Of a DNA stretch of 64,000 bases, positions 34,032 through 52,330 are shown one piece after another (the first letter of the stretch is position 1; every line of letters starts with the position of its first letter). The stretch comes from an uncultured Oscillospiraceae bacterium (lineage in GTDB: Bacteria > Bacillota > Clostridia > Oscillospirales > Oscillospiraceae). The notes beneath the pieces are model-generated. The model searched no databases, was not told the DNA's origin, and saw only the letters and a program-made list of their open reading frames with translations. Location: contig CANRNU010000006.1 of the NCBI GenBank assembly GCA_947632005.1, positions 1 to 64,000 of the forward strand. Reading direction: 5' to 3'. A program made the translations under genes and the position numbers.

Positions 34032-36230
34032 TTATGCACCGGCGTCCGTCTCGGCTGTGTCCAGGCGCTGCCGGGCAACCAGCTCCGCGAAGAAGCCGTC
34101 CTCGGCAATGAGCTCGTCGTATGTGCCGTCCTCCACGATATGGCCCCCGTCCAGCACGATGATCCTGTCACAGTGGCGGATGGTGCTCAGCCGGTGGGCG
34201 ATGACGATGCGGGTGCATTTGAGCTTATCCAGGGACTCGGACACCACCCGCTGGGTGATGTTGTCCAGGGCCGAGGTGGCCTCGTCGAACATGAGGATGC
34301 GGGGCTTTGGCGCGATGGCCCGGGCAATGAGGATCCTCTGGCGCTGACCGCCGGAGATGCCGCCGCTGCCCTCGGATATCAGGGTATGCATCCCCATGGG
34401 CATGCGCCGGATGTCCTCCGCCACGCCCGCCATCTCCGCCGCCGCCCAAGCGTCGTCCATAGTCAGCCACGGCGCGGAGATGGTAATGTTGGAGTAGATA
34501 TCGCCCTGGAACAGTTTCCCGTCCTGCATCACCACGCCCATGCGCCGACGCAGGCTCTTCAGGTCCAGGCCCGACATGTCCCGGCCGTCGTAGTAGATGG
34601 CGCCCTTTTGGGGCTTTTCAAAGCCCAGCAGCAGCCGCATGAGCGTACTCTTGCCGCAGCCGGTCTTTCCCACAATGGCCACATACTGACCGGGGCGGAT
34701 CTTGAGGCTCATGTCGTCTACCACATTGGGCATATCCTCCGAGTACCGGAAGGAGACGTTGTTCAACTCAATGCCGCCAGAGAGGCGCTCTACCACCTGT
34801 TTGTCCGCGCTGATCTCCGGCTCCGCCTCCAGGATGGGCTTGGCCATGTTGAGGATAGGGACGATCTGACCCGCCATGGACGCGATGCCCGCCAGCGAGG
34901 CAAAGGCCCCGGTGATCATGGCATAGGCGGAATTGAAGGCGTAGTATTCCGCCGCGGACACGCCGCTTCTCACCGCCACGGCATACATCACCAGCGTGCC
35001 GGTGAGGCTGATGGCCAGGCTGATGACGCTGTTCACCTTCAAAAACATGGGCGGGTCATAGGCCAGCCGGGCCCCCTTGGCATACTGCTCGCTCCACTTG
35101 GCAAAGGCCCGCTTCTCCGCGCCGGAGAGCTTCACCTTCTGCACGCCGCTGATGAGGGCGTAGGAAAGGCCGCTCTCCTTGGCGTCCTGCTCCATCATCT
35201 GCTGGGTGACGCCCTTTTGCCGGATGGAGGTGAGGACCGAGAACACCAGCGTGACGCCCACCACCGCCAGCGCCGGGACCACCAGCGCCGGTGCGTAGGC
35301 AAAGATCTGGGTGATCTGCAGCAGGGAGAACAGGCTCGTCAGCCCCACCGCCGCCACAGAGGTGACAAGAAGGCTGGAGAGCGTCTTGATGTTCATGACA
35401 CGGGTGGCCATCTCGCCGGTGCTGTACTGCCGGAAGAAGTTGGCCGGCAGGGCAAACAGGCGCATCATCCCGGCGGCCTCTACCGCCACGGATACCTTCG
35501 TCGCCATCCGCCCGGAGAGGAGCTGCTTCACCACCTCCAGCAGCTGGGTGCTCACGCTCACCAGCAGCATGAAGGAGATGAGCGCCGCCAGCACCTGTAT
35601 GCTTCCGCTGTCCGCCACACGGGAGAACAGCAGATTGTTGAGCCTGGGCAGCAGCAGTCCCACCAGCGACACCGCCAGCGCGGCTGCCCCGAACAGGAGC
35701 CGGTCCGCCCAGGAGGTACAGGAGCCTATGTACCGCATCAGGCCCGGGATGCCGATCTTCCCCTGGGGGAAGGGCCGGTAGAACGCGATGGCCTCCCGTT
35801 CAAAAAGCGCCGCCCTGCGGGCGTTCACCCGCGTGCGCCTGCCCGCGTCCGTGTCATAATATGTATAGCCGGAAAGGCCCGCAGGGACCAGGGCCGTGAG
35901 GGCGCCGCTGTCCTTCCGGCGGGCCAGCATGGCGCCGATGGCGTCCTGATACCAGCGCTCCTCCAGCGTCACCGTCCGGCGCATGATGCCGTGGGGACGC
36001 AGCAAAAATTCCAGCTGCTCGTTGAAGTCCTTCACCGAGCCGGGTATCTCCCGGCTTTTGACGTGGTAGAACTTCAGTATCTCCTCCATGGCGCTCTTGG
36101 CCTGCTGGCTGCTGTCCCCGGGGACGACCGGACGGCCCAGCACCGCCCCGGCAATGGAGGCGAAGCCCTCCTCAAAGGCCTGCTGGTCCTGCCGCTTGCG
36201 CTCGCGTATCTGTTCGTCAAACCAACCCAT
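34032..36230 (-). CDS. NHLM-type bacteriocin export ABC transporter, permease/ATPase
   Basis: TM domain plus VGKTGCGKSTLMRLLLGFEKPQKG, SGGQRQRILIARAI; paired with C39-ABC. Confidence 0.88.
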   Translation of the reverse strand: MGWFDEQIRERKRQDQQAFEEGFASIAGAVLGRPVVPGDSSQQAKSAMEEILKFYHVKSREIPGSVKDFNEQLEFLLRPHGIMRRTVTLEERWYQDAIGAMLARRKDSGALTALVPAGLSGYTYYDTDAGRRTRVNARRAALFEREAIAFYRPFPQGKIGIPGLMRYIGSCTSWADRLLFGAAALAVSLVGLLLPRLNNLLFSRVADSGSIQVLAALISFMLLVSVSTQLLEVVKQLLSGRMATKVSVAVEAAGMMRLFALPANFFRQYSTGEMATRVMNIKTLSSLLVTSVAAVGLTSLFSLLQITQIFAYAPALVVPALAVVGVTLVFSVLTSIRQKGVTQQMMEQDAKESGLSYALISGVQKVKLSGAEKRAFAKWSEQYAKGARLAYDPPMFLKVNSVISLAISLTGTLVMYAVAVRSGVSAAEYYAFNSAYAMITGAFASLAGIASMAGQIVPILNMAKPILEAEPEISADKQVVERLSGGIELNNVSFRYSEDMPNVVDDMSLKIRPGQYVAIVGKTGCGKSTLMRLLLGFEKPQKGAIYYDGRDMSGLDLKSLRRRMGVVMQDGKLFQGDIYSNITISAPWLTMDDAWAAAEMAGVAEDIRRMPMGMHTLISEGSGGISGGQRQRILIARAIAPKPRILMFDEATSALDNITQRVVSESLDKLKCTRIVIAHRLSTIRHCDRIIVLDGGHIVEDGTYDELIAEDGFFAELVARQRLDTAETDAGA

Positions 36231-36241
36231 GGCGCGCCCCC

Positions 36242-38416
36242 TCAGTCATTGGACACCAGGCGGGTGTAATACCCGTTCATGGCGTAGAGCTCCTCGTGCG
36301 TCCCCCGCTCCACCACCTTGCCCTGGTCCAGCACGATGATCTCGTCGCAGTCACGGATGGTGGAGAGCCGGTGGGCTACCACGATGCAGGTGACGCCCCG
36401 GTCCTTGATGGACTTGACCACCTCATACTCCGTCTTGGCGTCCAGGGCGGAGGTGGCCTCGTCCAGGATGATGATGGTGGGGTCCTGGGCCAGGACCCGG
36501 GCGATCTCCATGCGCTGGCGCTGGCCGCCGGAGAAGTCCCGGCCGCCCTCGGTCAGCTTGTGGTCATAGCCGCCCTGCCGCTGGACGATGTCGCTGTGTA
36601 TCCCCGCGTCCCGGGCCGCCAGGATCATCTCAAAGTCCTCGATGGACTTATCCCACATCTTGATGTTTTCCGCGATGGTGTCCTCAAAGAGGATGACGTC
36701 CTGGTCCACCACCGCCAGGGACCCGGTAAACACGCTCCGGTCGATGTCCCGGATGGGCTTGCCGTCGAAGAGGATCTCCCCGCTCCAGGGCTGGTAGAGC
36801 CCGGAGATGAGCTTGGACAGCGTGCTCTTGCCGCAGCCGGACCCGCCCACGAAGGCCACCCGGCTGCCCGGCTTCAGGGACAGGTTGAAATCCTCGATGA
36901 GGGGGTCCGCCAGCTTGGAGTAGCCGAAGGTCACGTGGCGCATCTCCAGCGCCCCGGAGAGCTTGTCGTAGCTCTCCGGCGCCTCTCCCTCGGCCATGTT
37001 GCTGTCCTCGGGGTATTCCATCACGTCCTCCACCCGCTCCATCTCCGTGCGCATCTCCTGGATGGTCTGCCCGGCGCCGATCAGCGACGTCGCCGGGGCG
37101 GTGAAGCTCATGAGGAACCCCTGGAAGGCCATGACCATGCCCAGGGTGAAGCTGCCCTGCATCACGAACAGCACCCCCAGGAACAGGATCACCATATCAC
37201 AGACGATGCTCACCAGAGACGGGATGAGCCCCAGGTACGCGTCCATCTTCGTAAAACGCGTCTCCTGGGTGTTCACGCTGGCCTGATAGCCCGCCCAGCG
37301 CTCAAAATAGCCGTTCTCCGCCCCGGCGGCCTTGATGGTCTCGATCATCTCGATGGCCGCCATGGTGGAGGCCGCCAGCTTCCCCGAATCGCGCATCTGC
37401 ACCCGCATGACGTTTATCCGCTTTTGGGAGATGAACCGGCTCACCGCCAGGTTGATGACCACCGACAGCAGGCCCACCAGCGTCAGGACCCAGGAGTAGC
37501 GCAGCATGACGGCCAGATAGAACACCATCATGCCGGCGTCCAGCACCAGGGGGCCCAGTGTATTCACCAACTCCTGGGCAATGGTGGCATTGGTCTGCTG
37601 CCGCTGCTGGATATCGCCGGCCATGCGCTGGGAGAAAAACTCCATGGGCATGTGCAGCACCTTCCACAGGAAGGTGGCCGCCCCCACCGAGGCCAGCTTG
37701 CCGGTGATGCGCAGGGACCATACCGCCTGGATCCAGGCCACCACCAGCTGCAGCAGACTGACCCCGGCCAGCGCCCCCAGGAACGGCCACAGCCACTGGG
37801 GATTCTCGCCGGTCAGGAGCCTATCCATGAATATCCGGGAAAAGGCCGGGTTGATCACGCCGAACAGGGAGCTGATGAGGGTGGTGAGCGCCACGAATAC
37901 CAGGGCCGTGCCCGCGCCGGTCAGGCGTTTTTTCGCATAGTTGACCATGCTCTTGGGGCTGCCGCTGGGCTGGAACGCCTCCCCCGGCTCGAACGCCATG
38001 CAGATGCCCGTGAAGGACTCGTCAAAGCTCTCCATGCTCACCGGCACCGTGCCCCGGGCCGGGTCGTTCAGGATGGCCTTGTCCCCTCTGAACCCGTTCA
38101 GCACCACAAAATGGTTGAAGTTCCAGTGGATGATGCAGGGGAACGTCCCCTGCCTCTTCAGGTCCTCCGGCTCATAGCGGTACGCCTTTGCCGTGAGGCC
38201 ATAGCTCCTGGCCGCCCGCAGCACGTTCCTGGCGTTGGAGCCGTCCCGGCTCACGCCGCAGTCCGCCCGCACCTGCTCCAGGGGTATCCACTTCCCGTAG
38301 TAGGCCAGCACCATGGTCAGACAGGCCGCGCCGCACTCCAGCGCCTCCATCTGCATGATCACCGGCACCTTCGCCACCCCTTTGGTGACAGGTCTTTTGA
38401 TCTCAGCCTTCTTCAT
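36242..38416 (-). CDS. NHLM-type ABC transporter with N-terminal C39 peptidase
   Basis: MQMEALECGAACLTMVLAYYGKWIPLEQVR (C39 Cys), IIHWNFNHFVVLNGF (C39 His), ABC ATPase motifs. Confidence 0.95.
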   Translation of the reverse strand: MKKAEIKRPVTKGVAKVPVIMQMEALECGAACLTMVLAYYGKWIPLEQVRADCGVSRDGSNARNVLRAARSYGLTAKAYRYEPEDLKRQGTFPCIIHWNFNHFVVLNGFRGDKAILNDPARGTVPVSMESFDESFTGICMAFEPGEAFQPSGSPKSMVNYAKKRLTGAGTALVFVALTTLISSLFGVINPAFSRIFMDRLLTGENPQWLWPFLGALAGVSLLQLVVAWIQAVWSLRITGKLASVGAATFLWKVLHMPMEFFSQRMAGDIQQRQQTNATIAQELVNTLGPLVLDAGMMVFYLAVMLRYSWVLTLVGLLSVVINLAVSRFISQKRINVMRVQMRDSGKLAASTMAAIEMIETIKAAGAENGYFERWAGYQASVNTQETRFTKMDAYLGLIPSLVSIVCDMVILFLGVLFVMQGSFTLGMVMAFQGFLMSFTAPATSLIGAGQTIQEMRTEMERVEDVMEYPEDSNMAEGEAPESYDKLSGALEMRHVTFGYSKLADPLIEDFNLSLKPGSRVAFVGGSGCGKSTLSKLISGLYQPWSGEILFDGKPIRDIDRSVFTGSLAVVDQDVILFEDTIAENIKMWDKSIEDFEMILAARDAGIHSDIVQRQGGYDHKLTEGGRDFSGGQRQRMEIARVLAQDPTIIILDEATSALDAKTEYEVVKSIKDRGVTCIVVAHRLSTIRDCDEIIVLDQGKVVERGTHEELYAMNGYYTRLVSND

Positions 38417-38423
38417 AGGCGTC

Positions 38424-38900
38424 TCAGTTCAGCAGAAAGGAGATGGGCGAAACGCTGTCCACCACGATCTCAGCCTCATATACGCCCTCCGCCAAAGACG
38501 CGCCCACCTGGGCAGGATACACCCACTGGCCCGCCTCCAGGCCGCCAACGTGCATGGTATAGGCGTCGAAGCTCTCATCCACCGGCACGGGCCTGGGGTC
38601 GATCCCGTTCAGGACATACTCCTCCCCGCCCACGCGGACGGTCTGTCCCTCCTGCACCGCATCCAGGTCGTCTTCCCCTATGTAGCAGATGACCCCGCCG
38701 TCCGCTCCGGCTACTGCCGCCGCGGCGACCGTCGTCTCCAGCCGGCCCAGCGCCGACCAGATGATGAGCCCCGCCAGCAGCGCGATCACCGCGGCCAGCA
38801 CCAGCCACACCCCCGGACTCGTCACCCGGATATAGTCGTTCATCTGCTCCGGACTGGATACTTTCTCCAGACTTTTTTGACGAAACAGCCCGTTGTCCAT
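38424..38900 (-). CDS. NHLM-type secretion (HlyD-like) membrane protein
   Basis: One TM segment and short periplasmic-adaptor-like domain, directly upstream of the two ABC genes. Confidence 0.75.
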   Translation of the reverse strand: MDNGLFRQKSLEKVSSPEQMNDYIRVTSPGVWLVLAAVIALLAGLIIWSALGRLETTVAAAAVAGADGGVICYIGEDDLDAVQEGQTVRVGGEEYVLNGIDPRPVPVDESFDAYTMHVGGLEAGQWVYPAQVGASLAEGVYEAEIVVDSVSPISFLLN

Positions 38901-38943: not shown

Positions 38944-40122
38944 TCAGAAGGTCAGTGTGTCTATCCGGCCCAGGAGCTCGGCCAGCCGGGCTTTGCAGTT
39001 GGCGATGATGGCCTGCCCCTCGGCGGTGCCGCTCAGCCGGCGGATGGTACGCCGCAGCAGCCGGGTGTAGCCGATCACCTTTGCCTTGCCGGCGATCTCG
39101 TCCAGTCGGGCTGCATCGTCCGTGCCGAAATACAGCCGGAGGGTCTTCTCCCAGATGGCGGTGCAGGTGTCGTAATCCAGCCCCAAAAACTTCTCCGACA
39201 CGCTGTGGTCCAGCTCGCCGAAGCCCTGATAGGCCAGGAATATCGACGCGAACTCGAACACCGGGTGGCCCATGCACAGGGTGTCCATGTCGATGAGCAG
39301 CACCTCGCCGTTTTGGACCATGACATTTTTGACGTGGTAGTCCCCGTGGAGCATATGGTGGTCCTCCGGCACGTCGGCGATGAGCCGGCGGAGCTTTTCG
39401 TACTGCTCCGGGGGAAGATGTCCGTTCAGAAAGTCCGCCCAGTCCAGGGCCACGGCCTTCATGTCCGGCATATCCCCGGGCTGCACCTCGGTGGCGTGTA
39501 TCTTTTTCAGCAGCTCCACATACACGCCGACATATTCGTCCAGCTTCTCCGGCTCGGCGATGATGAGCTTTGCCAGGCTCTTGGCGTTCAAGAGCTCAAA
39601 GACCGAGCCATAGCCGTCGCCCACCTTGACCACATCGTAGGGGATGGCGGTGGGGATGCCCAGCACGAAGGCCCGGCGGGCCAGTTCCCGCTCCCGGTGG
39701 ATGTCCGGCAGGCTGTCCGGATTCAGATACACCTTGATGATGGTGTCCGGGTCCAGACGGTATACCTCGCCGTTGGCGCCCCGGCCGATGACCTCGCAGC
39801 CCTCCACGCTCAGCCGCCGGTACGCCTTTTCCACCGGTATCATCTCCGTGAAGCCGGTCATGTCCAATATCTCATATACCTCCGGGGACGCGTTCACGAT
39901 GCGCAGTCCCGGCTGCTCCTTCCGCAGCCGGAGGATGACCCGCAGGCCCGCGCTGGAGATGTATGTGAGCTGCTCCAGATCCAGCACCACACCCGCTTCC
40001 GGAGCCTGCTGACGCAGCTCGTTCAGCTCCTGCTCGGCCTGCGCGGCGTTGCTGGAGTCGACGTGCCCTGCCAGATACACCGTCAGCACGCCGTTTTCCT
40101 GTTTGCCCTCTGCAATCTTCAT
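38944..40122 (-). CDS. STAS domain-APH-like phosphotransferase fusion
   Basis: N-terminal STAS (LTYISSAGLRVILRL); C-terminal APH fold (HGDYHVKNVMVQNGEVLLIDMDTLCMGHPVFEFA). Confidence 0.88.
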   Translation of the reverse strand: MKIAEGKQENGVLTVYLAGHVDSSNAAQAEQELNELRQQAPEAGVVLDLEQLTYISSAGLRVILRLRKEQPGLRIVNASPEVYEILDMTGFTEMIPVEKAYRRLSVEGCEVIGRGANGEVYRLDPDTIIKVYLNPDSLPDIHRERELARRAFVLGIPTAIPYDVVKVGDGYGSVFELLNAKSLAKLIIAEPEKLDEYVGVYVELLKKIHATEVQPGDMPDMKAVALDWADFLNGHLPPEQYEKLRRLIADVPEDHHMLHGDYHVKNVMVQNGEVLLIDMDTLCMGHPVFEFASIFLAYQGFGELDHSVSEKFLGLDYDTCTAIWEKTLRLYFGTDDAARLDEIAGKAKVIGYTRLLRRTIRRLSGTAEGQAIIANCKARLAELLGRIDTLTF

Positions 40123-40134
40123 ATTGAACCCCTT

Positions 40135-42693
40135 TCACGCCTCCAGGCTTTTTTTGATCGTGAGAATGTTCTGTCCGTCTTTGTACTCGTATTTCACATC
40201 GTCCATGGTCTTCTTCACCATAAAGATGCCCAAGCCGCCGATCTGTCTGTCCTCGGCGGAAAGGGACACGTCCGGGTCCGTCTTCGCCAGCGGGTCGTAG
40301 GGCCTGCCCTGGTCGATGAACGTGATGCGCACCGCCAGCGGCTCCTGGTCCACATCCACCCGCACCGTGGCCGGACCTGTATCCGGATCGTAGGCATAGT
40401 GGGCGATGTTGCCGAACAGCTCGTCGATGGCGATGTCTATTTGGGTCTGGGCCTTCATCGGGCAGTCCAGCGCCTCCAGCCGCTCGTTCACAAAGTCCGT
40501 CACTGCCGGGATGTTCTCCAGGGTGGCCTCCACCGTCAGTTCGTCCGGCTCGCCCGTTCCCGTCTTCTCCCGGAACTCCAGACAGAGCATGGTGATGTCG
40601 TCAAATTGGGGCGCCTCCCCCACGAACCGGTCGATGTCCGCCTTCACTGCCGGCAGCAGCTCGTCCGGCGACACCTCCGCGTTCCGGTTCAGCACCGCCT
40701 CCAGCCGCTCCATCCCGTACAGCTCGTTGCTCCCGTTGGTGGCCTCCGTCACTCCGTCCGTGTACTGGAACAGCTTGTCGCCCGGCTCCAGCTCCATGCT
40801 CCCCATCCGGTACCGCGTCCCCTCCATGCCTGCCAGCACAAAGCCAGGCCGGATCTTGTAGGGGGCGTAGCTGCCGTCCTTTTTGCAGATGAACGGCATC
40901 TCATGCCCCGCGTTGACGAAGTCGAACCGGCCGGTCTCCAGGTCCAGCACGCCCTCAAAGGCCGTGATGAACATCTCCTCGCTGTTGGACTCGCACAGCA
41001 GCCGGTTCACCTCCATGAACACCTCGCCCAGGTCCCGCCCCGGCGTGGTGTGGTCCTTGATCAGCGTCTTCCCGATGACCATGAAAAGGGCCGCCGGCAC
41101 GCCCTTGCCGGACACGTCCGCCATCACCACGGCCAGGTGGGTGTCGTCCACCATGAAGAAGTCGTAAAAATCTCCGCCCACCTCTTTGGCCGGGGCCATG
41201 GAGGCAAAGATGCTGAATTCCTTCCGGTCCGGGAAGGGCGGGAAGATGCAGGGCAGCATGGACGCCTGGATATGGGTGGCGATGTCCAGCTCCGCGCCGA
41301 TGCGCTCCTTTTCCGCCGTGACGTTCGTCAGGTCCCTGATATAGCTGTTCAGCGACCCGGCCATGCCGTTGAAGGCCACCGCCAAGTCCCCGATCTCGTC
41401 GTTTTGCCGCACGGCAGCCTGGTGGGTCAGGTCCCCGGAGCTTATGTGTTCCACGTCCGACCGCAGCTCCAGGAGCGGACCGGTGAGCCGCCGGGAGAAC
41501 CCGCCGCTCAGGCCCACCACTCCCCCGATGATGAGAGCGAACACCGCGAGGGACAGGATCTCCGTCCGTGCGATGCGCGCATTTATGGTCGCGGCGGTGG
41601 CATCGGTCCGGGCGGTGATATCCGCACGGATATCCTCGACCGGGGTCAGCACAGCATCCGCCGGCGCGTGGATTGCCAGCGTCCAGTCTGCGGTGGTGAT
41701 GGGCGTATAGGCGTAGTAGATATCATCCGATGTGGACGTGACGCCGGTGACGCCGCTCATGATCTGAGACGCCGCCTCATAGGCCGGGCAGTCCGGGGAC
41801 CAGACGTTGTCAAAGCTCCCGTCCTCCCGCATATAGGGGGAGGCTATGATATCCCCCTGCGGGTCTACCAGAAACGCGTAGGAGCCGGGGCTGAAGTCAA
41901 TGTCTATGATCTCCTTGATGATGTTCTCGACGAGGATGTCTATGCACACCACACCGGCAAGGCGGCCCTCTGCGTCCCGGACCGGCGCGGCGCACGTGAC
42001 GGTGAGGCCCCGGCCGAAATGGTCCTCATAGGTGCCCGTGAACACAGGGCCGTCGGCGTTCCTCGCGGCGGTGTACCAGATCGAGTCAAAATAGTCGTAG
42101 TACTCCGATGTCACATTGGGGGTCGACTCATAGGTGAGCATGAAGCCCGACTCCGTTGCTATGTAGATGGTGGAGATGATGCTGTCGTTATCGGTGATGA
42201 CCGGCTGCCAGACATGGACGAGATTGGACAGCAAGTCCATCTCCTCCTCCACGTCCTTGAGGGCGACGCTCGCATTCGCAAAGCTCATCAACAGCACATA
42301 GTGATAGTTGCTCTTCTCACCGACCTGATACACTTTCCGGGGCACATAGGCGTCGGGCTCCTCATAGATACGCCGGGCATAGAAGGCAAACTGGCTGGTG
42401 TAGTCCGCGAACTTGATGAATCGCCTGTCCGCCATTTCAGCTTCGACCTGCGCAGCACGCAGGAGGTTATGTTCCATCTGGTCCAGCAGCGCCTCGCTCC
42501 CGGCGGTCGCTGCGTTCTCACCCAGGTCCCGGCTGTCCCGCTGCACCGTGTCCCGCAGGGCGAACAGGCTCCCGGCCCACAGCATCCCCGTGACCACCAG
42601 CGCCGCCACGCACAGCAAGAGCACCATCCGCTGCACCTGCAGGCGGATGGGCCGGCGCTTCATATCCTGTTTTTGCTTATCGCCGCTCCCCAT
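40135..42693 (-). CDS. SpoIIE-family PP2C phosphatase with Cache-HAMP input and C-terminal HATPase_c (RsbW-like)
   Basis: TM-Cache-TM-HAMP; EVGGDFYDFFMVDDTHLAVVMADVSGKGVPAALFM; C-terminal IDIAIDELFGNIAHYAY...GGLGIFMVKKTMD. Confidence 0.93.
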   Translation of the reverse strand: MGSGDKQKQDMKRRPIRLQVQRMVLLLCVAALVVTGMLWAGSLFALRDTVQRDSRDLGENAATAGSEALLDQMEHNLLRAAQVEAEMADRRFIKFADYTSQFAFYARRIYEEPDAYVPRKVYQVGEKSNYHYVLLMSFANASVALKDVEEEMDLLSNLVHVWQPVITDNDSIISTIYIATESGFMLTYESTPNVTSEYYDYFDSIWYTAARNADGPVFTGTYEDHFGRGLTVTCAAPVRDAEGRLAGVVCIDILVENIIKEIIDIDFSPGSYAFLVDPQGDIIASPYMREDGSFDNVWSPDCPAYEAASQIMSGVTGVTSTSDDIYYAYTPITTADWTLAIHAPADAVLTPVEDIRADITARTDATAATINARIARTEILSLAVFALIIGGVVGLSGGFSRRLTGPLLELRSDVEHISSGDLTHQAAVRQNDEIGDLAVAFNGMAGSLNSYIRDLTNVTAEKERIGAELDIATHIQASMLPCIFPPFPDRKEFSIFASMAPAKEVGGDFYDFFMVDDTHLAVVMADVSGKGVPAALFMVIGKTLIKDHTTPGRDLGEVFMEVNRLLCESNSEEMFITAFEGVLDLETGRFDFVNAGHEMPFICKKDGSYAPYKIRPGFVLAGMEGTRYRMGSMELEPGDKLFQYTDGVTEATNGSNELYGMERLEAVLNRNAEVSPDELLPAVKADIDRFVGEAPQFDDITMLCLEFREKTGTGEPDELTVEATLENIPAVTDFVNERLEALDCPMKAQTQIDIAIDELFGNIAHYAYDPDTGPATVRVDVDQEPLAVRITFIDQGRPYDPLAKTDPDVSLSAEDRQIGGLGIFMVKKTMDDVKYEYKDGQNILTIKKSLEA

Positions 42694-42696
42694 GGC

Positions 42697-42996
42697 TCAC
42701 TGGATGGTCAGGATGTCCGCGAAGCCCGTGACCTCGAAGATCTCCATGATCGTCTCGTTCACGTTCCGCAGCACCATGGTCCCCTGTTTGTTCATGACCT
42801 TTTGCGCGCTCAGCAGCACCCGCAGTCCCGCCGAGGACAGATATTCCAGCTCCCCAAAGTCCAGCGTCAGCTCTGTGACGCCGTCCACGCTCTGCCGCAG
42901 CTCCGCCTCCAGCTGAGGAGCGGTGGTGGTGTCCAGCCGGCCGGCCAGGGCCAGGTCAAGATGGGTCCCGTTCTGATTCTTTGTGATCGTCATCAT
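42697..42996 (-). CDS. STAS-domain anti-sigma factor antagonist
   Basis: LEYLSSAGLRVLLSAQKVM. Confidence 0.93.
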   Translation of the reverse strand: MMTITKNQNGTHLDLALAGRLDTTTAPQLEAELRQSVDGVTELTLDFGELEYLSSAGLRVLLSAQKVMNKQGTMVLRNVNETIMEIFEVTGFADILTIQ

Positions 42997-43061: not shown

Positions 43062-43340
43062 TCAATGCGGCCTTTTCTCCAGACCATGGTCGGCGCCGCC
43101 GCCGGCAGCAGTGCAGACGCAGTAGAGCATCTTGCCCAGTCCTTCACACCGTTCGTCGATGCCGGTCCCCTCTCCGTACATCGCACAGGCGCATTGGTAC
43201 CTGGCGTGACTTCCGCTGTCGTTTCCTTTGCCGCTGCCTCCCATGACGCAGCCACAGGAGCCTCCGTTCACCGCGTCCAGTTCAGACTCGTCCAGCTCCT
43301 TCTCCCGGTCCAGGATATCGTCTTTTTTCTCTTCCGACAT
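43062..43340 (-). CDS. RiPP precursor peptide C (CxC-rich)
   Basis: MSEEKKDDILDREKELDESELDAVNGG-SCGCVMGGSGKGNDSGSHARYQCACAMYGEGTGIDERCEGLGKMLYCVCTAAGGGADHGLEKRPH; RBS GGAGGAGA. Confidence 0.85.
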   Translation of the reverse strand: MSEEKKDDILDREKELDESELDAVNGGSCGCVMGGSGKGNDSGSHARYQCACAMYGEGTGIDERCEGLGKMLYCVCTAAGGGADHGLEKRPH

Positions 43341-43359
43341 ATTTGCCCGCTCTCCTCCG

Positions 43360-43590
43360 TCAGGGGTACTCCGGCGGTTTCCAACCGTCGCCATCCCCCG
43401 CCTGGAAGCAGAAGCACGTGGTCTTGTACTTTCCCTCTCCCGGGGCAGGGCACTGCGATTTGGGTTTTTCGTCGCCGTATCCCTCAAACACACAGTGGCA
43501 GGGGCGGTAACCGCCGGTCACTGCCTCCATCTCGGACTCCTCCAGCTCGCTCTCCCGACCCAGGATCTCGTTCTTCTTTTCCTCAGACAT
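43360..43590 (-). CDS. RiPP precursor peptide B (CxC-rich)
   Basis: MSEEKKNEILGRESELEESEMEAVTGG-YRPCHCVFEGYGDEKPKSQCPAPGEGKYKTTCFCFQAGDGDGWKPPEYP; GGAGG RBS. Confidence 0.87.
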   Translation of the reverse strand: MSEEKKNEILGRESELEESEMEAVTGGYRPCHCVFEGYGDEKPKSQCPAPGEGKYKTTCFCFQAGDGDGWKPPEYP

Positions 43591-43659
43591 GTTCGTTTCC
43601 TCCATCAAGAAAACATAGATTTTCCGGTCCCCGCTGCTATGGCGTCCCGCAGGGCTTTT

Positions 43660-43905
43660 TCATGTGACTGGCTTATCCGTACCGCCGCCCACAGCAGGGC
43701 AGAAGCAGTAGGTCGTATCCTCTTTATCAAAGCCGACACCGGCGCCAGGACAGGGACAGATGTATTCGAGGTCGCTTTTCTTCCCATGTCCTCTGCCGCC
43801 GCCGCCGAGGAAACAGCCACAGTCGCCTCCGCTCACCGCGTCCAGTTCGGTCTCGTCCAGCTCTTTTTCCTTGTCCAGGACCTCGTTTTTCTTTTCCTCA
43901 GACAT
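43660..43905 (-). CDS. RiPP precursor peptide A (CxC-rich)
   Basis: MSEEKKNEVLDKEKELDETELDAVSGG-DCGCFLGGGGRGHGKKSDLEYICPCPGAGVGFDKEDTTYCFCPAVGGGTDKPVT; GGAGG RBS. Confidence 0.87.
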   Translation of the reverse strand: MSEEKKNEVLDKEKELDETELDAVSGGDCGCFLGGGGRGHGKKSDLEYICPCPGAGVGFDKEDTTYCFCPAVGGGTDKPVT

Positions 43906-43920: not shown

Positions 43921-45321
43921 TTAAGATGATTTTGGCTTACTTTGTTTGACCTCCTCCATGACGGCCCGGATCTTCTCATCCCAGCCGTCCCGGAAGATGG
44001 CACAGGCATACATATCCCGGCCCAGGATGTCCTCCGGCGCGGTCTCCAGCGCGCTGGCCCGGCACCCGCCCAGACATCTGGCAGCGTGGGGGCAGACCCG
44101 GCACTCCGAATCGTGGGCCAGCACCTCCAACGCCCGGGTCTCGATCAGGCGCATATAGCTGGAATCGGTGATGCATGCGCGCAGCCCCAGCTCCGGGATC
44201 AGCGGATAGTTCTCCTGGATGGGCATGCCCGACAGGGCCATGCAGGGCAGGGCCCGGCCCTCGGCGGAGATATACATCACCATCCGGGCGTGGCCGCACA
44301 CGCAGACTCTCTCCGGGTCGGCGCAGTTCTTCTCCGAGGGGATGGACCAGCCCTCCGGGTCGCGGGGGCTAGCGGAGAAAAAGCCGCCCAGCTGCAGGCT
44401 CAGGGGCATGCCGTCCTCATAATACCGGGGAATGTAGTCCAGATAGGTCTGGAAAAGCTCCTCCATACCGATGCCCGGCCCATAGCCGCCCTCTTTCCAG
44501 GCGCCCACGTTGGAAATGGGATTCGTCTTGAGGCTTCCGCAGCCCAGACTGGCCAGGAAGTTGACGGTATCCCGGAGGGTGTGCTTGTTCTGCCGGTGGA
44601 TGCACATCTCCGCCCCGGTGGGAAAGCCGTGCTCCCGGCAGAGCTTGAATGCATCCGTCACATACTTCTCCGCCCCGGGCACGCCCCGGAGCCAGTCGTG
44701 CCAGCCCACCCCGTCAAAACTCATGTTGAACTCAGGACGGATGCCCCGGTCCTCCAGCTTTTTCAACAGCTCCTCCGTCACCAGCCGACCGTTGGAATAG
44801 ATCTGGGAGATATGTACCCCGCCGTCCAGCAGCACATCCACGATATCAAAAAGATCCCGGCGCACCAGCGGCTCCCCGCCTGTGAGCGTCACTTCTGCTA
44901 TGCCGCAGTCCACGATCTGGCGGGCGATGCTCATGGCCGTGTCATGGTCCAGCTCCCCGTACTTGGCGTCCGGGGCGGACATATAGCAGTGCTTGCAGCG
45001 GTAATTGCACCGGCCCGTCACGGACCAGTGGGCCGTGCGGATGTATCGGTTGTCGTGGAATCTGTAAAGCTGATCGTCTTTCAGCTTCTCTCCTGCCCGG
45101 CAGGGGCGGATGATGCCCCGCTCCACCGCCGCACGGACCGCGCTCCGCCGCGCCTCTGACGCCTCCGGTCCGTCCAAGTCCCGGCTTCCGTCGCAGTCCA
45201 GCAGGAACTCCATGTCCGGGCGGCGGAGAAACCTGGCCCGGCCCGTGTCCCGGTCCACCAGGGCAAAGGGCAGCTTTCGCCAGCCCCGAAGGCAGTATCT
45301 CTCGTTCAGCAGGTAATGCAT
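43921..45321 (-). CDS. Radical SAM/SPASM RiPP maturase
   Basis: CNYRCKHCYMSAPD CxxxCxxC; GGEPLVR; C-terminal SPASM CRVCPHAARCLGGCRASAL; N-terminal PqqD/RRE-like region. Confidence 0.93.
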   Translation of the reverse strand: MHYLLNERYCLRGWRKLPFALVDRDTGRARFLRRPDMEFLLDCDGSRDLDGPEASEARRSAVRAAVERGIIRPCRAGEKLKDDQLYRFHDNRYIRTAHWSVTGRCNYRCKHCYMSAPDAKYGELDHDTAMSIARQIVDCGIAEVTLTGGEPLVRRDLFDIVDVLLDGGVHISQIYSNGRLVTEELLKKLEDRGIRPEFNMSFDGVGWHDWLRGVPGAEKYVTDAFKLCREHGFPTGAEMCIHRQNKHTLRDTVNFLASLGCGSLKTNPISNVGAWKEGGYGPGIGMEELFQTYLDYIPRYYEDGMPLSLQLGGFFSASPRDPEGWSIPSEKNCADPERVCVCGHARMVMYISAEGRALPCMALSGMPIQENYPLIPELGLRACITDSSYMRLIETRALEVLAHDSECRVCPHAARCLGGCRASALETAPEDILGRDMYACAIFRDGWDEKIRAVMEEVKQSKPKSS

Positions 45322-45923: not shown

Positions 45924-46550
45924 TTACGGACAAACCGCCTCCTTTTGCACGCGGCGCAGATCCTGATAAAGCAAGTCATATATCTTGGGATCGACGCTGG
46001 AGAAAACCACCTTGAGCTGATACGCGCTGTTTTCCGCCAGCCAAGCATATACGGCCCTCACGGCGATCTCGCAGGCCTCCTTTTGTGGGTAACTGGACTT
46101 TCCGGTGGAAATCGACGGGAAGGCGATGCTGTGGATCCCATGTTCCCTCGCCAGGTCAAGACTGGCCGTATAGCATTTTGCCAGGTCCTCCCGGCAGTGC
46201 GCGGACGGATATCTGGGGCCGACCGTGTGGATGACATGCTTTGCCTTCAGGCGGTATCCTCCCGTTATCTTTGCCTCGCCCACCCGACATCCGCCGAGCG
46301 CGGCGCATTCCGTTCTCAATCCCTGCCCTGCGGCACGATAGATCGCGCCGTCAACGCCTCCGTCTCCATGAAGCGTCCCGTTCGCCGGGTTTACTATGCA
46401 TTCGCATTCGGACAGCGTTATATCCCGGTCGTCGAGCCACATCCCCTCAAACGGCCCTGTCAGCGAATGGCAGACCGGCGGCGCCGGTATCCCGTCCCGG
46501 CGCAGTTCGTCCCGCAGGGCCATGAGGATCTTTCCGAGATGGTTTTCGCC
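45924..46550 (-). CDS. Macro-domain (ADP-ribose hydrolase-like) region, in a different frame from the upstream NADAR domain
   Basis: ITLSECECIVNPANGTLHGDGGVDGAIYRAAGQGL; HVIHTVGPRYPS; IAFPSISTGKSSYPQKEACEIAV. Confidence 0.85.
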   Translation of the reverse strand, partial: GENHLGKILMALRDELRRDGIPAPPVCHSLTGPFEGMWLDDRDITLSECECIVNPANGTLHGDGGVDGAIYRAAGQGLRTECAALGGCRVGEAKITGGYRLKAKHVIHTVGPRYPSAHCREDLAKCYTASLDLAREHGIHSIAFPSISTGKSSYPQKEACEIAVRAVYAWLAENSAYQLKVVFSSVDPKIYDLLYQDLRRVQKEAVCP

Positions 46551-46942
46551 TTCGCCCGTTTCAGGTCCACGCCCCAATATAGGTCCTTCCAACGATTCCC
46601 CTCTTTCAGCTCTCGCTCTCCGGTGTCCAGCAGATCCCGCGCCAGCGTAGGATTTTGCGCGAATTTTTCGCGCACGACCCGCTCCATGAGCTCCAGCTTC
46701 ACCGCATCCCAATCCGGCCTCGCCTCCACCTTCCTTCCGAGCCGTTTCGATTCGTCGGCGGAGAGAAGGGCAAACTGTTCTTTGTCCGTTTGGCGCAGGC
46801 ATTTCTGCGCCTGATAAGCGGCCTCCGAATTGTAATAGGTGATACCATCGAACGATATTTTCGTTGGATAAAAATTGCTCAAAAAATCGTATTCTCCACG
46901 GAAAAGGCCAATGGTCCGGTCTGTGGCCCCACAACGATCCAT
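46460..46942 (-). CDS. NADAR (YbiA-like) family protein, frameshifted before its C-terminus
   Basis: GLFRGEYDFLSNFYPTKISFDGITYYNSEAAYQAQKC; NRWKDLYWGVDLKRAK; expected GENHLGKILMALRDELR is in the -1 frame. Confidence 0.85.
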   Translation of the reverse strand: MDRCGATDRTIGLFRGEYDFLSNFYPTKISFDGITYYNSEAAYQAQKCLRQTDKEQFALLSADESKRLGRKVEARPDWDAVKLELMERVVREKFAQNPTLARDLLDTGERELKEGNRWKDLYWGVDLKRAKAKTISERSSWPCGTNCAGTGYRRRRSAIR

Positions 46943-48708
46943 TCTGTCTCCTTCCTCCATACGCCCCGCGCGCCCAGCGCCGGAAATGTACCCTCCCGAT
47001 CATCTGCCGGTATAACAAAATGACGCGGCAATCCATCGGTCATAGCGTTCCGGAGCGTCCTGTCCCGCTCAAAAATGATCTTCGACGCCCTGTTTCTGCA
47101 ATGATTTGAAAACAGTCCAAACTGTTTGCCCCCGCCCATAGCCGACGTTTTTTTAAGGAAGAAGAGCTTTGACCGACGAGAGCCCCACTTTGGCGGGGAG
47201 CCGACATCTTCAAAGCTCTTCTGCGGTGGTGCACCACGGCAATCCAAATCCGAACCCGCGGCCTGTTCATCTAGGGCCGCCTTCATCTCGTCAAAGGTGA
47301 CGGTCTTTGTCCCGTCCTTGTAGTTGATGTGGAGCGTCAGCTTGTCATCGAACAAGTACACCGAGTTGACGAATGTGTCTATGAGCTGCTGCCGATGCTC
47401 CTTCTTCCGCATGTCCAGCTTGCGGAACCGCTCCAGCCACATGGTCACGAACTCTGCCGTCAGCTTCGGCTTCGCCAGCTTCTCGTTGGCAATCTTGATC
47501 TCCAGGTCCTCTTTTGTGGCCTCCAACTCTTCCAACCTAGTTTTGGTGGACGGAGTAAGTATTCCCTGCTGGATGGCGTTGAGCAGGTTATTGATGCCGG
47601 TCTCCGCTTCTTTTAGCTGTTGCTCATACAGCGGAAGATTGGTATTTTCACGCTCTTGCAAGTCCATCACCATAGAAACAATGGCTTCAATGGTTTTATC
47701 GTCCCGTATCTCCTTCATCGTCTCATGGACGATGAAATCCTCAATAAACGCCTTGTTGACCGGCTTCTTGTGACAGTCGCCGCGTTTTTTCTTCACCGTG
47801 GCGCACTTGTAGTAATGGTGGACCTTCCCTGTGTGGCTGGTGCCGCTCTCGCCGCACATACAACTGCCGCAGTAGCCGCAGAATAGTTTTGTGGTCAGCA
47901 GATAGTCGTCTTCAGCCTTATGTCGGGCTGGAGCCTTTTTGTTCTTGGCCAGCTTTTCCTGCACCCGCTCAAACAAGTCCTTGGGAACAATGGCGGGGAT
48001 TCCGTCAGGGATGACCGTATCACGATAACGGAACTCACCCATGTACCGGCGATTGTTCAGCAGGTGCTGGATGCTGTTATAGGAGAACGGCTGCCCGCGT
48101 GTGTTCTTCACGCCTTTCTCATTCAGCCAATCCCGGATAGCAGTCATGGTGTACCCGGCGTCGTATCTCTTGAATGCCCCCAGAACATAAGGGGCCGTCA
48201 GCGGGTCGATTTGGAAGTGCTGTTCGCTGTCTATGACATAACCCGTGGGCAGGGTCCCGCCGTTGAATTTGCACTTGAGAGCGTTATCCGTCATGCCTCG
48301 GATGACCTTTTCGGACAGATCGGCGGAGTAATACTCGGCGTAGCCTTCCAGCACGGATTCCAATATAATGCCTTCCGCGCCCTCAGAAATGACCTCGGTG
48401 GCAGACACCACTTTGATGCCGTTCTTTTTGAGTGCGGCCTTGTACCGGGCACTGTCATAGCGGTTTCGGGCAAAGCGATCCAGCTTCCAGACGATGATCA
48501 TGTCGAACAGCTTTTTCCCGCTGTCCTTGACCATGGCCTGGAACTCCGGGCGGTTATCCGTCTTGGCGGAAAACGCCCGGTCTATATAGTGGCGCAACAC
48601 AGTGATACCGTTTTTCTCTGCAAAGGCGGTGCACTCCCGAATTTGCCCCTCTATGCTTTCTTCCCGCTGGCTGTCTGAGGAGTAACGGGCGTAGATTACG
48701 GCGGTCAT
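46879..48708 (-). CDS. Large serine recombinase (C-terminal extension probably reads past the native end)
   Basis: MTAVIYARYSSDSQREESIEGQIREC; Zn-ribbon FCGYCGSCMCGE...CATVKKKRGDC; coiled coil. Confidence 0.95.
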   Translation of the reverse strand: MTAVIYARYSSDSQREESIEGQIRECTAFAEKNGITVLRHYIDRAFSAKTDNRPEFQAMVKDSGKKLFDMIIVWKLDRFARNRYDSARYKAALKKNGIKVVSATEVISEGAEGIILESVLEGYAEYYSADLSEKVIRGMTDNALKCKFNGGTLPTGYVIDSEQHFQIDPLTAPYVLGAFKRYDAGYTMTAIRDWLNEKGVKNTRGQPFSYNSIQHLLNNRRYMGEFRYRDTVIPDGIPAIVPKDLFERVQEKLAKNKKAPARHKAEDDYLLTTKLFCGYCGSCMCGESGTSHTGKVHHYYKCATVKKKRGDCHKKPVNKAFIEDFIVHETMKEIRDDKTIEAIVSMVMDLQERENTNLPLYEQQLKEAETGINNLLNAIQQGILTPSTKTRLEELEATKEDLEIKIANEKLAKPKLTAEFVTMWLERFRKLDMRKKEHRQQLIDTFVNSVYLFDDKLTLHINYKDGTKTVTFDEMKAALDEQAAGSDLDCRGAPPQKSFEDVGSPPKWGSRRSKLFFLKKTSAMGGGKQFGLFSNHCRNRASKIIFERDRTLRNAMTDGLPRHFVIPADDREGTFPALGARGVWRKETEWIVVGPQTGPLAFSVENTIF

Positions 48709-49061
48709 TTCGTCTCCCCCTCCAGCATCTGCACCAGCGTCTTTTTCAGCCGCTTGTTCATGGGAGATTTGGGGTCAAAGCACATCTTGATGAACTCGTT
48801 CATCTCCGGATGCAGCTTGCTCAGATCCGGCTCGTTGGAATATACCTTTCCCTTGGGATCATCCGTGCGGCCATAAAGATAGTCCAGCGATACATCAAAA
48901 TAATCCGCATAGCGGAGCAGCACCTTGGCGGAGGGTTCGCACTGGTTATTCTCATAGCGGTTGACGCCGGACTGCCGCAGGCCCAGGATAGGGGCCAGCT
49001 TATTTTGGGATACGTTGATGGACAGCCGCAGCGCCCGCAGCCGTTCTGCCATAATCTGCAT
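48705..49061 (-). CDS. XRE-family transcriptional regulator
   Basis: LRALRLSINVSQNKLAPILGLRQSGVNRYENNQCEPS. Confidence 0.9.
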   Translation of the reverse strand: MQIMAERLRALRLSINVSQNKLAPILGLRQSGVNRYENNQCEPSAKVLLRYADYFDVSLDYLYGRTDDPKGKVYSNEPDLSKLHPEMNEFIKMCFDPKSPMNKRLKKTLVQMLEGETK

Positions 49062-49166
49062 GATGGACCCTCCTATGTTGGTTTTCTATATCATAGCACA
49101 TCACAGCGTATAAATCAACACCTGGTTTGCATAATATTGTGTATGAAAAAATAGCTGACTAAGGTT

Positions 49167-50294
49167 TCACAGTTTCGGTGTTACTTCAGGCGTGCCATCT
49201 TCGTAAATGATGGTAGTCATCCGCATGAATCGAATATCACAGGTGCTGCCGGATTTGATTAGGCACGACGGGACATCGTATTTTATGCATATGCTGTTGT
49301 GAAACATCATGACCCACAAGTATTTTTTCAAAATATGTTCTCGTATCGCCGCTAGTTTGGCTCCTTCTTCACTCACCGCATCCAAATCGTCATACTTGCC
49401 AAATTTCTTGATTTTCTCAATAATACGAAGACTATGGCGCTCAAGCTGTTGTATTTGGTCAGGGCTGGAATTGCTGACTTTTTGATAGTCGCTAAGTGAG
49501 AGTGTTTTCAGAATTTCCAGAAGTCTCTCGATAGTAGCTTGATTGATAGTATTGTTTATGCCAGAAGTGTATAGGTAGTTTAAGCTCAAGCATCCTTCAG
49601 ATTCTAGGAAAAGAAGTTGGTTTCGCCATGCTAAATAGAATTTTTCCACTTCAACAGCGGGCATAAGGGAATTACAAAAGGTGAGATCTTCATCGGTAAT
49701 GTATTCACCAGAATGTGCGCGCCGTTCAATTTCACATGCCCTATTCAGATCGCCCTGATCCACAAAGTGGGGTTGCAAGACATAGTTTTTAACAGCCTCC
49801 CCTAGAATGATTCGGGGATATACCGCAGTCTCCTCCAACTCAACGGCATCAATCAGTCCCTGACCGAATATGAAATCATCATTAAATGAAAGACTTCCAA
49901 TCGTTACCCCGCCTCTTAGAAACAAGCCATAGTTCAAAATGAAATTTCGCTGAATATCCGCAACAATGGCCAAAAACGCTAAGAAACGCGGATACTCTAT
50001 CTGAGCAGTTTTTTCACCAACTTCCAGACAAAGCAAAATGTTATCCGAAAAGATTTTTGTTTTGATGGCCAGCCTGCCTAATTTGCCAACAAACGAGGAG
50101 CCAATCCCTTGCGTGTATTCTTTCGCGTTAGAAACTGCATCGTGTATGTCCTGGAGGAATTCTTCAACTCTTTCCGGGTAAGTACGAAAGAAATCTTTAT
50201 AACCCAGCAAATCAAAATATGCAATGTAGTATTCCTTAATTGGCTCTGGCATCTGATTCTCTAACGGCATATAATCATTCCTTTCTGGAAGCAC
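49167..50294 (-). CDS. Class III nucleotidyl cyclase-like domain protein
   Basis: YFDLLGYKDFF and KIFSDNILL (two metal-Asp motifs), RGGVTIG, FGQGLIDAVELE in cyclase order. Confidence 0.65.
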   Translation of the reverse strand: MLPERNDYMPLENQMPEPIKEYYIAYFDLLGYKDFFRTYPERVEEFLQDIHDAVSNAKEYTQGIGSSFVGKLGRLAIKTKIFSDNILLCLEVGEKTAQIEYPRFLAFLAIVADIQRNFILNYGLFLRGGVTIGSLSFNDDFIFGQGLIDAVELEETAVYPRIILGEAVKNYVLQPHFVDQGDLNRACEIERRAHSGEYITDEDLTFCNSLMPAVEVEKFYLAWRNQLLFLESEGCLSLNYLYTSGINNTINQATIERLLEILKTLSLSDYQKVSNSSPDQIQQLERHSLRIIEKIKKFGKYDDLDAVSEEGAKLAAIREHILKKYLWVMMFHNSICIKYDVPSCLIKSGSTCDIRFMRMTTIIYEDGTPEVTPKL

Positions 50295-50306
50295 CTCCTG
50301 TAAGCA

Positions 50307-50558
50307 CTATTTTATCTCCTGCTCCAAACCTTCAAAGAGCGGGGACGCAAAGAACTCGGAAATGCCGATGTCCAGGCCGTCGCATAGCTTCTTCACCGTG
50401 GCCACCGTCGCGCTGTTGTTGCGGAGGCTGACGATGTTGTTCACCGTGGACTGCGTGACACCGCTGAGCGTGCACAGCCGGTTGACCGAGATGTTCCGCT
50501 CCCGGCACAGTTCCAAAATACGCTCCGCTACCGCTTCTCCCACATTCATCTTTGCCAC
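50307..50558 (-). CDS. XRE-family HTH protein
   Basis: RILELCRERNISVNRLCTLSGVTQSTVNNIVSLRNNSA. Confidence 0.9.
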   Translation of the reverse strand: MAKMNVGEAVAERILELCRERNISVNRLCTLSGVTQSTVNNIVSLRNNSATVATVKKLCDGLDIGISEFFASPLFEGLEQEIK

Positions 50559-50654
50559 CTCATTTCACCTATGAGGATAGCCAATTCCTGTTGACAAGTT
50601 TAACCCTTTTGGGTTAAAATAACTCAAAAGGGTTAGTGCACGGGAGGCGAGAAA

Positions 50655-50834
50655 ATGACGGACTACAAGCGGGCTTATCACATTCTCTGCGCAGCGGCGT
50701 CGTATGCGCTGGATGTACTGCCGGACACGCCGGAAAATGCCGCCGGGCGGACGGTCATTCAGGAGGCGCTTTTGGAGGCGGAGGACGTGTGCATCGAGAG
50801 CATGGACGAAAATGAAAGGGGTGCCGAAAAATGA
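50655..50834 (+). CDS. Small hypothetical protein
   Basis: RBS GGGAGGCGAG; MTDYKRAYHILCAAASYALDVLPDTPENAAGRTVIQEALLEAEDVCIESMDENERGAEK*; overlaps next ORF. Confidence 0.65.
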   Translation: MTDYKRAYHILCAAASYALDVLPDTPENAAGRTVIQEALLEAEDVCIESMDENERGAEK

Positions 50835-51076
50835 AAAAGCTGATCTCTTGTGAGTTCAACATGGACACGGGTCGTGTAGAACTGCGATACGCAGACGGCG
50901 GCCAAATCGACATTGACACCGCGGGCGTGGAGAACGAGGTCGCCGACAATCTCTATCAGCGCAGCAAACTGGACTGGCTGATCTATAACCAGCCATTGGA
51001 GTATGCACAGCTCGTCCTCGGTGGGGAGCTGGATGGATATGTACAAGGGACAGCGGAACATAGGTTGGAAGATTGA
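50831..51076 (+). CDS. Small hypothetical protein (DUF6061-like)
   Basis: LISCEFNMDTGRVELRYADGGQIDIDTAGVENEVADN; typical of MGE backbones. Confidence 0.65.
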   Translation: MKKLISCEFNMDTGRVELRYADGGQIDIDTAGVENEVADNLYQRSKLDWLIYNQPLEYAQLVLGGELDGYVQGTAEHRLED

Positions 51077-51142
51077 GCAACGCAAAAAACATGCCCTGCC
51101 AATTAATCTTGATTGGCAGGGCATGTTTCATACTCTTCTTAT

Positions 51143-52108
51143 TTACTCAGTCCTTTCCGAATTTTGAACGATTTGCTTTTTCATTTCGTCAACATCCGCC
51201 TCTGTCAAACTTGCGCGATAGTCAATGTGCTTTGGATTGATCTGCTCTGATAAATCATTTACATTGCAACAATCATAGACCACATTTTGTACTCTAATTA
51301 TTCTTTCTGGCTTTTTTTGCAGTTCTAAATCGTCCTGAGAAAAAATAACGAAGTTCATCCCCACATGACTTTGGAAGCTCGGATACGATATCCCCTGAAC
51401 CGAAGCATCTTTATCCCTAAGAGCATTAACCAAATATTGTGTTGGTAGATACTCCAAATCTGCGTCTCCTCTACGAATGGGACGCGAGAACTGGAATGAC
51501 AACTCTCTTGCGGTTGCATTTAAGTAAATGTTTATATCCTCGTCATCTATGAGCATCGCCTTTAAGTCTTGCCCGGTGCGTGGTAACTTAATTATCTTAA
51601 TTGGCGACGGGTTTACATACTCTACTACATTCACAAGCTCTAAGATTGACGGACGAACCTCCGAGACTGCTGTGTATATGTTATCTGTTACATATAAATC
51701 GGGAATTCCTTTTGGACTGGCTCGGTTTGGACCGGCCTTCTCTACGGGTGGCACGCCAACATCAGAAGGATCAGAATATCCTCTGATTAGGCTCTTTCTA
51801 GGTATCCAAACCGGCATTTTCTCATTATCAGGTCCGAAATAATCTATGTGCTTTTGAACTGTTAATTTCCACCCAGGGATAATCCTCGCTCTATAGAATA
51901 CCGATCCCACAGGAACTTCAACTGTGAAGTACTTTGCTAGTAAGTCCGTAACTTCATCAATGAACTCTCTGTCTTCCTTTCGGGGAATAAAACGTGAATT
52001 GTGAATCAGGTTATAACAAAACATGTTCCATTGATGATGGAAATATGTACTTTTTGCCGCGAATTCAAAGTTCTTCATTCTCTTTTTTAGTTCTTGCTCT
52101 TCGTTCAT
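51143..52108 (-). CDS. RES-domain protein (ART-like NAD+-consuming fold) with extra N-terminal region
   Basis: VFYRARI...NRASPKGIPDLYVTDNIYTAVSEVRPS...YLPTQYLVNALRDKDASVQGISYPS. Confidence 0.82.
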   Translation of the reverse strand: MNEEQELKKRMKNFEFAAKSTYFHHQWNMFCYNLIHNSRFIPRKEDREFIDEVTDLLAKYFTVEVPVGSVFYRARIIPGWKLTVQKHIDYFGPDNEKMPVWIPRKSLIRGYSDPSDVGVPPVEKAGPNRASPKGIPDLYVTDNIYTAVSEVRPSILELVNVVEYVNPSPIKIIKLPRTGQDLKAMLIDDEDINIYLNATARELSFQFSRPIRRGDADLEYLPTQYLVNALRDKDASVQGISYPSFQSHVGMNFVIFSQDDLELQKKPERIIRVQNVVYDCCNVNDLSEQINPKHIDYRASLTEADVDEMKKQIVQNSERTE

Positions 52109-52135
52109 TCCATCTTCCTCTAAAGCAAAATTACT

Positions 52136-52330
52136 GCGGTTCTCTCAAGTTCATATAAATCTCTTTCGTGAAGATTCCCAGCACCTGGCGCTTAAATTCC
52201 TCATCACTCCAGAACAGCGAGAAGAAATCCTGTTTTGGGGAGAGGCCCTCGATCAGTTCGTCGTCGGTGTCATCGAAACAGGAAAACTCGAAATCCTTAC
52301 GTCTAGTGCACTTTCTTCACATTCTTTGTT
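52136..52330 (-). pseudogene. Start-less coding remnant between res and RES gene
   Basis: Minus frame RRKDFEFSCFDDTDDELIEGLSPKQDFFSLFWSDEEFKRQVLGIFTKEIYMNLREPQ*; opened by TGA, no start codon. Confidence 0.5.

Follow-up and report, generated by a model that had tools for sequence, protein, structure and literature searches.

The described systems closest to the locus reported here are the sactipeptides, the freyrasin-type CX3D ranthipeptides, the TvgA/TvgB system and the Nif11-leader/NHLP precursors. Sactipeptides (SkfB; streptosactin/StsB; ruminococcin C) combine an RRE, a radical SAM domain and an auxiliary-cluster domain with a Cys-rich core that follows a leader, and their known sactionine acceptors, among which Gly is documented, are varied in identity (PMC8326336). 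For PapB, the CX3D ring spacing is documented, and the exact spacing is dispensable in vitro (PMC9413430). In TvgA/TvgB a repeated TVGG motif is the site of cyclopropylglycine formation (PMC9062424). SCIFF peptides, a further class considered here, carry six Cys in about 45 residues.

We analysed a window of 64,000 nucleotides from an uncultured Oscillospiraceae bacterium (assembly GCA_947632005.1, contig CANRNU010000006.1), and we infer that the locus it carries belongs among the radical-SAM thioether-type RiPPs as an apparently undescribed variant. In common with the sactipeptides, the locus has an enzyme with radical SAM and auxiliary-cluster domains and a putative RRE, a Cys-rich core after a leader and a putative Gly acceptor; however, its core holds three CxCX3GxG repeats rather than a single Cys-to-acceptor hairpin, and its thioethers are predicted. 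With freyrasin/PapB it has in common repeated modules, a Cys with a partner four residues away and a SPASM radical SAM maturase, but the partner is Gly, no Asp stands in register, and C1 and G9 are additional. The TvgA/TvgB system likewise has a radical SAM enzyme that repeatedly modifies short tandem motifs in one precursor, although the motif is another one, without Cys, and so is the chemistry.

An earlier note on this DNA had described three paralogous precursors with a common leader, and we confirmed, at the level of sequence, that the three minus-strand genes at 43062-43905 are predicted RiPP precursors of this kind, with 27-residue double-glycine leaders:

43660..43905, minus strand: precursor peptide 1, 81 aa, leader MSEEKKNEVLDKEKELDETELDAVSGG, three full CxCX3GxG modules (recognised by open reading frame, ribosome-binding site, modules and homologs)
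43360..43590, minus strand: precursor peptide 2, 76 aa, modules CHCVFEGYG, SQCPAPGEG (without C1) and CFCFQAGDG
43062..43340, minus strand: precursor peptide 3, 92 aa, three full modules and an extra Cys between modules 2 and 3

All three open reading frames are present, the ATG of MSEEKK is the start in each (3/3) with a GGAGG ribosome-binding site directly upstream, and the leaders fit the consensus that had been quoted. When peptide 1 served as query against the genome that the window comes from, the other two precursors were matched (E=1.2e-20 and 3.1e-10) and no convincing fourth copy appeared. The hallmarks of a RiPP gene cluster are found together here (a conserved leader, a cleavage site, a divergent core, and an adjacent modifying enzyme and exporter), and the leader, the divergent cores and the neighbouring maturase support the further proposal that these are RiPP precursors with a radical-SAM partner.

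The core alignment revealed a repeat unit of nine residues, C1-x-C3-x-x-x-G7-x-G9, with three units per core:

43795..43821, minus strand: module CGCFLGGGG, peptide 1 module 1
43732..43758, minus strand: module CPCPGAGVG, peptide 1 module 2
43681..43707, minus strand: module CFCPAVGGG, peptide 1 module 3
43474..43500, minus strand: module CHCVFEGYG, peptide 2 module 1
43432..43458, minus strand: module SQCPAPGEG, C1 lost, peptide 2 module 2
43390..43416, minus strand: module CFCFQAGDG, peptide 2 module 3
43230..43256, minus strand: module CGCVMGGSG, peptide 3 module 1
43167..43193, minus strand: module CACAMYGEG, peptide 3 module 2
43095..43121, minus strand: module CVCTAAGGG, peptide 3 module 3

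Eight of the nine modules fit CxCX3GxG fully, the exception being the middle module of peptide 2. The CxC assignments made earlier were correct (CGC/CPC/CFC in peptide 1, CHC/C/CFC in peptide 2 and CGC/CAC/CVC in peptide 3), but the repeat built on them was incomplete, as a GxG follows every CxC at a fixed spacing; peptide 2 does have a single Cys in the middle, but it belongs to an aligned module in which only C1 is missing. The seventh Cys of peptide 3 lies within ERCEGLGK. When 12 short-leader precursors are aligned, the columns that stay invariant in the core are the module Cys and Gly, with C1 of module 2 lacking in peptide 2 alone.

The protein encoded by the maturase gene beside the precursors was used as a query against 85,462 species genomes and yielded 80 maturase loci at 36% to 93% identity, nearly all of them from gut metagenome-assembled genomes (rabbit, ruminants, deer and chicken; Bacillota, Synergistota and Actinomycetota). 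The small ORFs adjoining these relatives yielded 55 distinct cores from 27 sources (the window and 26 other loci), including precursor-rich clusters with 12 (L012) and seven (L016) precursors. The 55 cores contain 183 CX3GxG matches (shuffled mean 17.4, maximum 30; 500 composition-preserving shuffles) and 178 CxC (shuffled mean 35.5, maximum 52). Among 163 CxC-anchored modules, Gly stands at +4 (G7) in 162 (99%) and at +6 (G9) in 153 (94%), vs 46% or less at all remaining positions among +1 to +11; as ORFs were selected for a CxC with at least two Gly in the next eight residues, Gly richness is partly selected here and the exact spacing is not. The G7 codons vary (GGC, GGT, GGA and GGG in 107, 30, 15 and 7 cases, respectively), and such synonymous variation at the module glycines indicates that the constraint acts on the amino acid. 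Linker and x positions are diversified among the 12 L012 paralogs.

A core-only profile matched no other genome of a 399-genome phylum sample and is therefore not a generic Cys/Gly-rich match; together with the shuffles, this control ruled out chance or composition as the source of the motif. A whole-precursor profile matched 11/392 genomes of the class, several via a Nif11 leader alone, and strong maturase matches are patchy within the genus (6/35 genomes, the window's genome counted); a plasmid collection gave no match. The 399-genome control bears on the alternative that the precursors encode unmodified Cys/Gly-rich class II bacteriocin-like peptides and that the neighbouring radical SAM enzyme acts elsewhere, which we regard as highly improbable: weak double-glycine/class II bacteriocin leader matches, the only ones obtained where no Pfam or NCBIfam precursor family claims the window peptides, would fit it, but in the window the precursor genes directly adjoin that of the maturase, and such precursors turn up again next to its relatives; the module grammar accompanies this maturase family and is absent from the 399-genome control, and neither Pfam nor NCBIfam revealed a second modification enzyme within the window cluster.

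The pattern had also been set apart from SCIFF and from freyrasin-type peptides. The first distinction holds, and SCIFF membership was rejected, as no SCIFF model matched the window precursors at E<=1 and the six Cys of peptide 1 are arranged as CxCX3GxG repeats. The second holds in one respect, since the +4 residue is Gly and not Asp (162/163 modules), on which ground membership of the CX3D ranthipeptides was rejected; however, the inner C3-X3-G7 spacing equals that of CX3D. Because Gly has no beta-carbon, a thioether at G7 would have to be at the alpha-carbon and hence sactipeptide-type rather than ranthipeptide-type.

The candidate modifying enzyme is encoded immediately next to the precursors:

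43921..45321, minus strand: radical SAM/SPASM maturase, 466 aa (Pfam Radical_SAM)

Its radical-SAM motif CX3CX2C is formed by C105, C109 and C112, and its seven-Cys SPASM motif is complete (C342-X12-G355-X4-C360; C407-X2-C410-X5-C416-X3-C420; C440), in agreement with the definition CX9-15GX4C...CX2CX5CX3C...C (PMC6231123). The cluster-ligand Cys are invariant in 62 relatives (C342 in 61). Residues 333-342 include, in the maturases of the CxCX3GxG group, an extra C333 and C340 near the first SPASM Cys. An AlphaFold2 model of the maturase reached a mean pLDDT of 93.6, and the sactisynthase SkfB is both the closest solved structure by sequence (4.8e-14, remote at 19% identity) and the best PDB match by fold, followed by SuiB (15% identity, remote), which makes a C-C bond, unlike the thioether predicted here; the fold matches also include TigE and the epimerase EpeE. 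The StsB model scored 83.2 bits vs a curated cut-off of 625, and no NCBIfam equivalog was reached among the best 25 matches listed. Residues ~1-75 form an RRE-like N-terminal domain; when the N-terminal 92 residues were modelled separately, the N-terminal region of SuiB was the top match, followed by the RREs of lasso B1 and cyanobactin heterocyclase proteins, with weak E-values (best 0.024), and a sequence profile of this domain found nothing convincing in PDB or Pfam.

We consider it unlikely that this enzyme installs a different modification (alpha-epimerisation, a C-C crosslink, or Cys/Gly oxidation), with the thiols free, in disulfides or metal-bound, in which case the secreted, mature product could serve in metal binding or redox reactions. 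CxC pairs commonly bind soft metals, the fold matches include EpeE, TigE and SuiB, and C340 makes a CxC with C342, adjoining the Aux I site, in 22/23 maturases of the CxCX3GxG group vs 33/62 overall, all of which are compatible with such a role. Nevertheless, the top sequence similarity among solved structures is to a sactisynthase, and a chelating CxC pair is weakened by modules in which C1 is dispensable, namely SQCPAPGEG in the window and all three modules of L063, which read C3-X3-G-X-G.

Our preferred reading, to which we assign a probability of roughly 50%, is a RiPP cluster in which the radical SAM enzyme would join the C3 thiol to the alpha-carbon of G7, and perhaps C1 to G9, before cleavage at GG and export. 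The radical SAM/SPASM enzyme would bind the acidic leader through its RRE-like domain and then modify every CxCX3GxG module of the core in repeated rounds; a 5'-deoxyadenosyl radical would take the alpha-hydrogen from G7, and the C3 thiol would close a sactionine-type, sulfur-to-alpha-carbon ring from C(i) to G(i+4), around which C1, where present, may close a second, outer C1-G9 ring. Each module would thus be a small stapled hairpin, with three of these beads per core strung together by variable linkers; the leader would be removed after GG by the C39 peptidase of the NHLP exporter, and the secreted product would plausibly be an antagonistic or signalling peptide. The earlier suggestion that the conserved Cys are the modification sites is supported, and we regard it as likely, with the glycines of each module now added to the conserved unit.

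Natural variants of the module inform the choice of bond. The first modules of Treponema L048 have lost both C1 and G9 while retaining C3 and G7, which favours C3-G7 as the primary pair. Given a three-residue turn, the C-x-C / G-x-G alternation would let C1/C3 and G7/G9 share faces of a hairpin, which makes an outer C1-G9 bond attractive, but such a bond is weakly supported because C1 and G9 are each also lost alone (C1 without G9 in 10 modules, G9 without C1 in 7), and a strict requirement for it was rejected on the same independent losses. C1 and G9 are associated (Fisher p=0.0065, with shared ancestry ignored and the double-loss cell hand-cleaned). A radical-SAM thioether RiPP could also have its acceptors at x4-x6 or in the linker, or pair C1 with G7 and C3 with G9 in parallel; these readings, taken together, we judge unlikely. 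Since sactionine acceptors are chemically diverse (PMC8326336), another residue might be the acceptor and the conserved glycines might serve only as turns, flexible points or substrate-recognition elements, and the parallel pairs are both i+6, a regularity compatible with the data; however, the x positions are hydrophobic-biased and not fixed, whereas G7 hardly varies (99%) and is retained together with C3 in L048.

Downstream of the precursors lie the exporter genes and, between them and the precursors, a further group of genes:

34032..36230, minus strand: NHLP exporter subunit 2 (TIGR03797, 725 bits vs cut-off 709)
36242..38416, minus strand: NHLP exporter subunit 1 with C39 leader peptidase (TIGR03796, 942 bits vs cut-off 853; Peptidase_C39, 1.3e-33)
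38424..38900, minus strand: short HlyD-like NHLP secretion protein, 158 aa (TIGR03794, N-terminal partial match, 6.9e-11)
38944..40122, minus strand: STAS-APH kinase-like fusion (Pfam STAS and APH; recurs in relatives)
40135..42693, minus strand: dCache-HAMP-SpoIIE phosphatase-HATPase sensor (Pfam)
42697..42996, minus strand: STAS anti-sigma antagonist (TIGR00377, 72.9 bits vs cut-off 53.45)

Exporter genes recur near the maturase relatives, and the C39 peptidase is likely to cut the leader after GG. The HlyD-like protein scores under the TIGR03794 cut-off (41.7 vs 156.2 bits) and has 158 aa vs 421 positions in the model; it is possibly a reduced Gram-positive form. Proteins similar to the STAS/SpoIIE/kinase group (38944-42996) are found near many relatives (L018, L019, L034, L052 and L079 among them) and are absent from the minimal clusters L011 and L012, which consist, among the genes compared, of the radical SAM gene, precursors, HlyD and two ABC subunits only. 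Because the group recurs but is missing from the minimal clusters, it is probably regulatory and optional, possibly exerting partner-switching control over RiPP production.

Short acidic double-glycine leaders are found in close relatives (maturase at least 76% identical to that of the window), and the remaining relatives have Nif11 leaders, of which 8/10 tested scored above the curated cut-off of TIGR03798. Related clusters thus combine the same core with Nif11 leaders, and the window likewise has an NHLP transporter with subunit scores above cut-offs; however, its own leader is the short form, which shares only the last part (ELxxxELxAVxGG) with the Nif11-leader members, and the window peptides matched neither TIGR03798 nor any other Nif11 model. 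In the maturase tree the short-leader enzymes form one clade (support 99) with L038, a locus that has a Nif11 leader, as its closest neighbour, which suggests that the leader type probably changed once without a change in the core grammar. That all maturases with CxCX3GxG cores form one clade of single origin was rejected (AU test on grouping the 23 labelled rows, p 8.8e-52): L052 falls outside the main group, which in turn includes some distant Synergistales rows whose cores are of other kinds. As to homologs lacking the Cys pattern, which the earlier note had named as a potential objection, the pattern is kept within the close maturase clade; departures from it occur only in clades further away, whose maturases pair with other Cys-containing precursors.

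No family model describes the CxCX3GxG motif, and we found no description of it, or of Nif11/NHLP radical-SAM RiPPs, in the literature searched, which included few subscription-journal papers. In the fullest form of the proposal, which we regard as doubtful, one maturase would make up to six thioethers per peptide, with a C3-G7 bond enclosed by a C1-G9 bond in every doubly stapled CxCX3GxG hairpin and Gly as the dedicated acceptor, and the RiPP family, previously undescribed and present in gut bacteria of three phyla, would have exchanged its Nif11 leader for a short double-glycine one with no change to the core grammar. The module itself (CxCX3GxG, three per peptide) offers a simple, testable substrate grammar for an uncharacterised group of radical-SAM maturases, and L012, with 12 diversified precursors, amounts to a natural library on a fixed scaffold. 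Should the C3-G7 bond be real, it would parallel CX3D thioether chemistry with glycine as the specific partner, offer a compact form of serial peptide stapling useful in peptide engineering, and mark a new candidate class of antagonists or signals that gut microbes secrete.

Upstream of the maturase, the flank at 45924-56560 encodes a macro-domain protein, NADAR, a serine recombinase, an HTH regulator, a RES-domain protein, a ResIII helicase/endonuclease and a DNA methylase, and is a mobile or defence-type region adjoining the RiPP cluster. Among other maturase loci, the Synergistales L034, L036 and L040 have Nif11-like precursors that end in a short CTG(V/A)xxxxxCDxVTx core, and the distant relatives at L070, L072, L076, L079 and L084 accompany precursors with a conserved core of the CAATVEDGSxCxxNDAC type. 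In L058, L062 and L067 (Faecalibacterium, Blautia and related), the precursors are short, with a DxITTSG-type leader and short Cys/Gly/Asn-rich cores that contain NGCxGNSG in L058 and L062.
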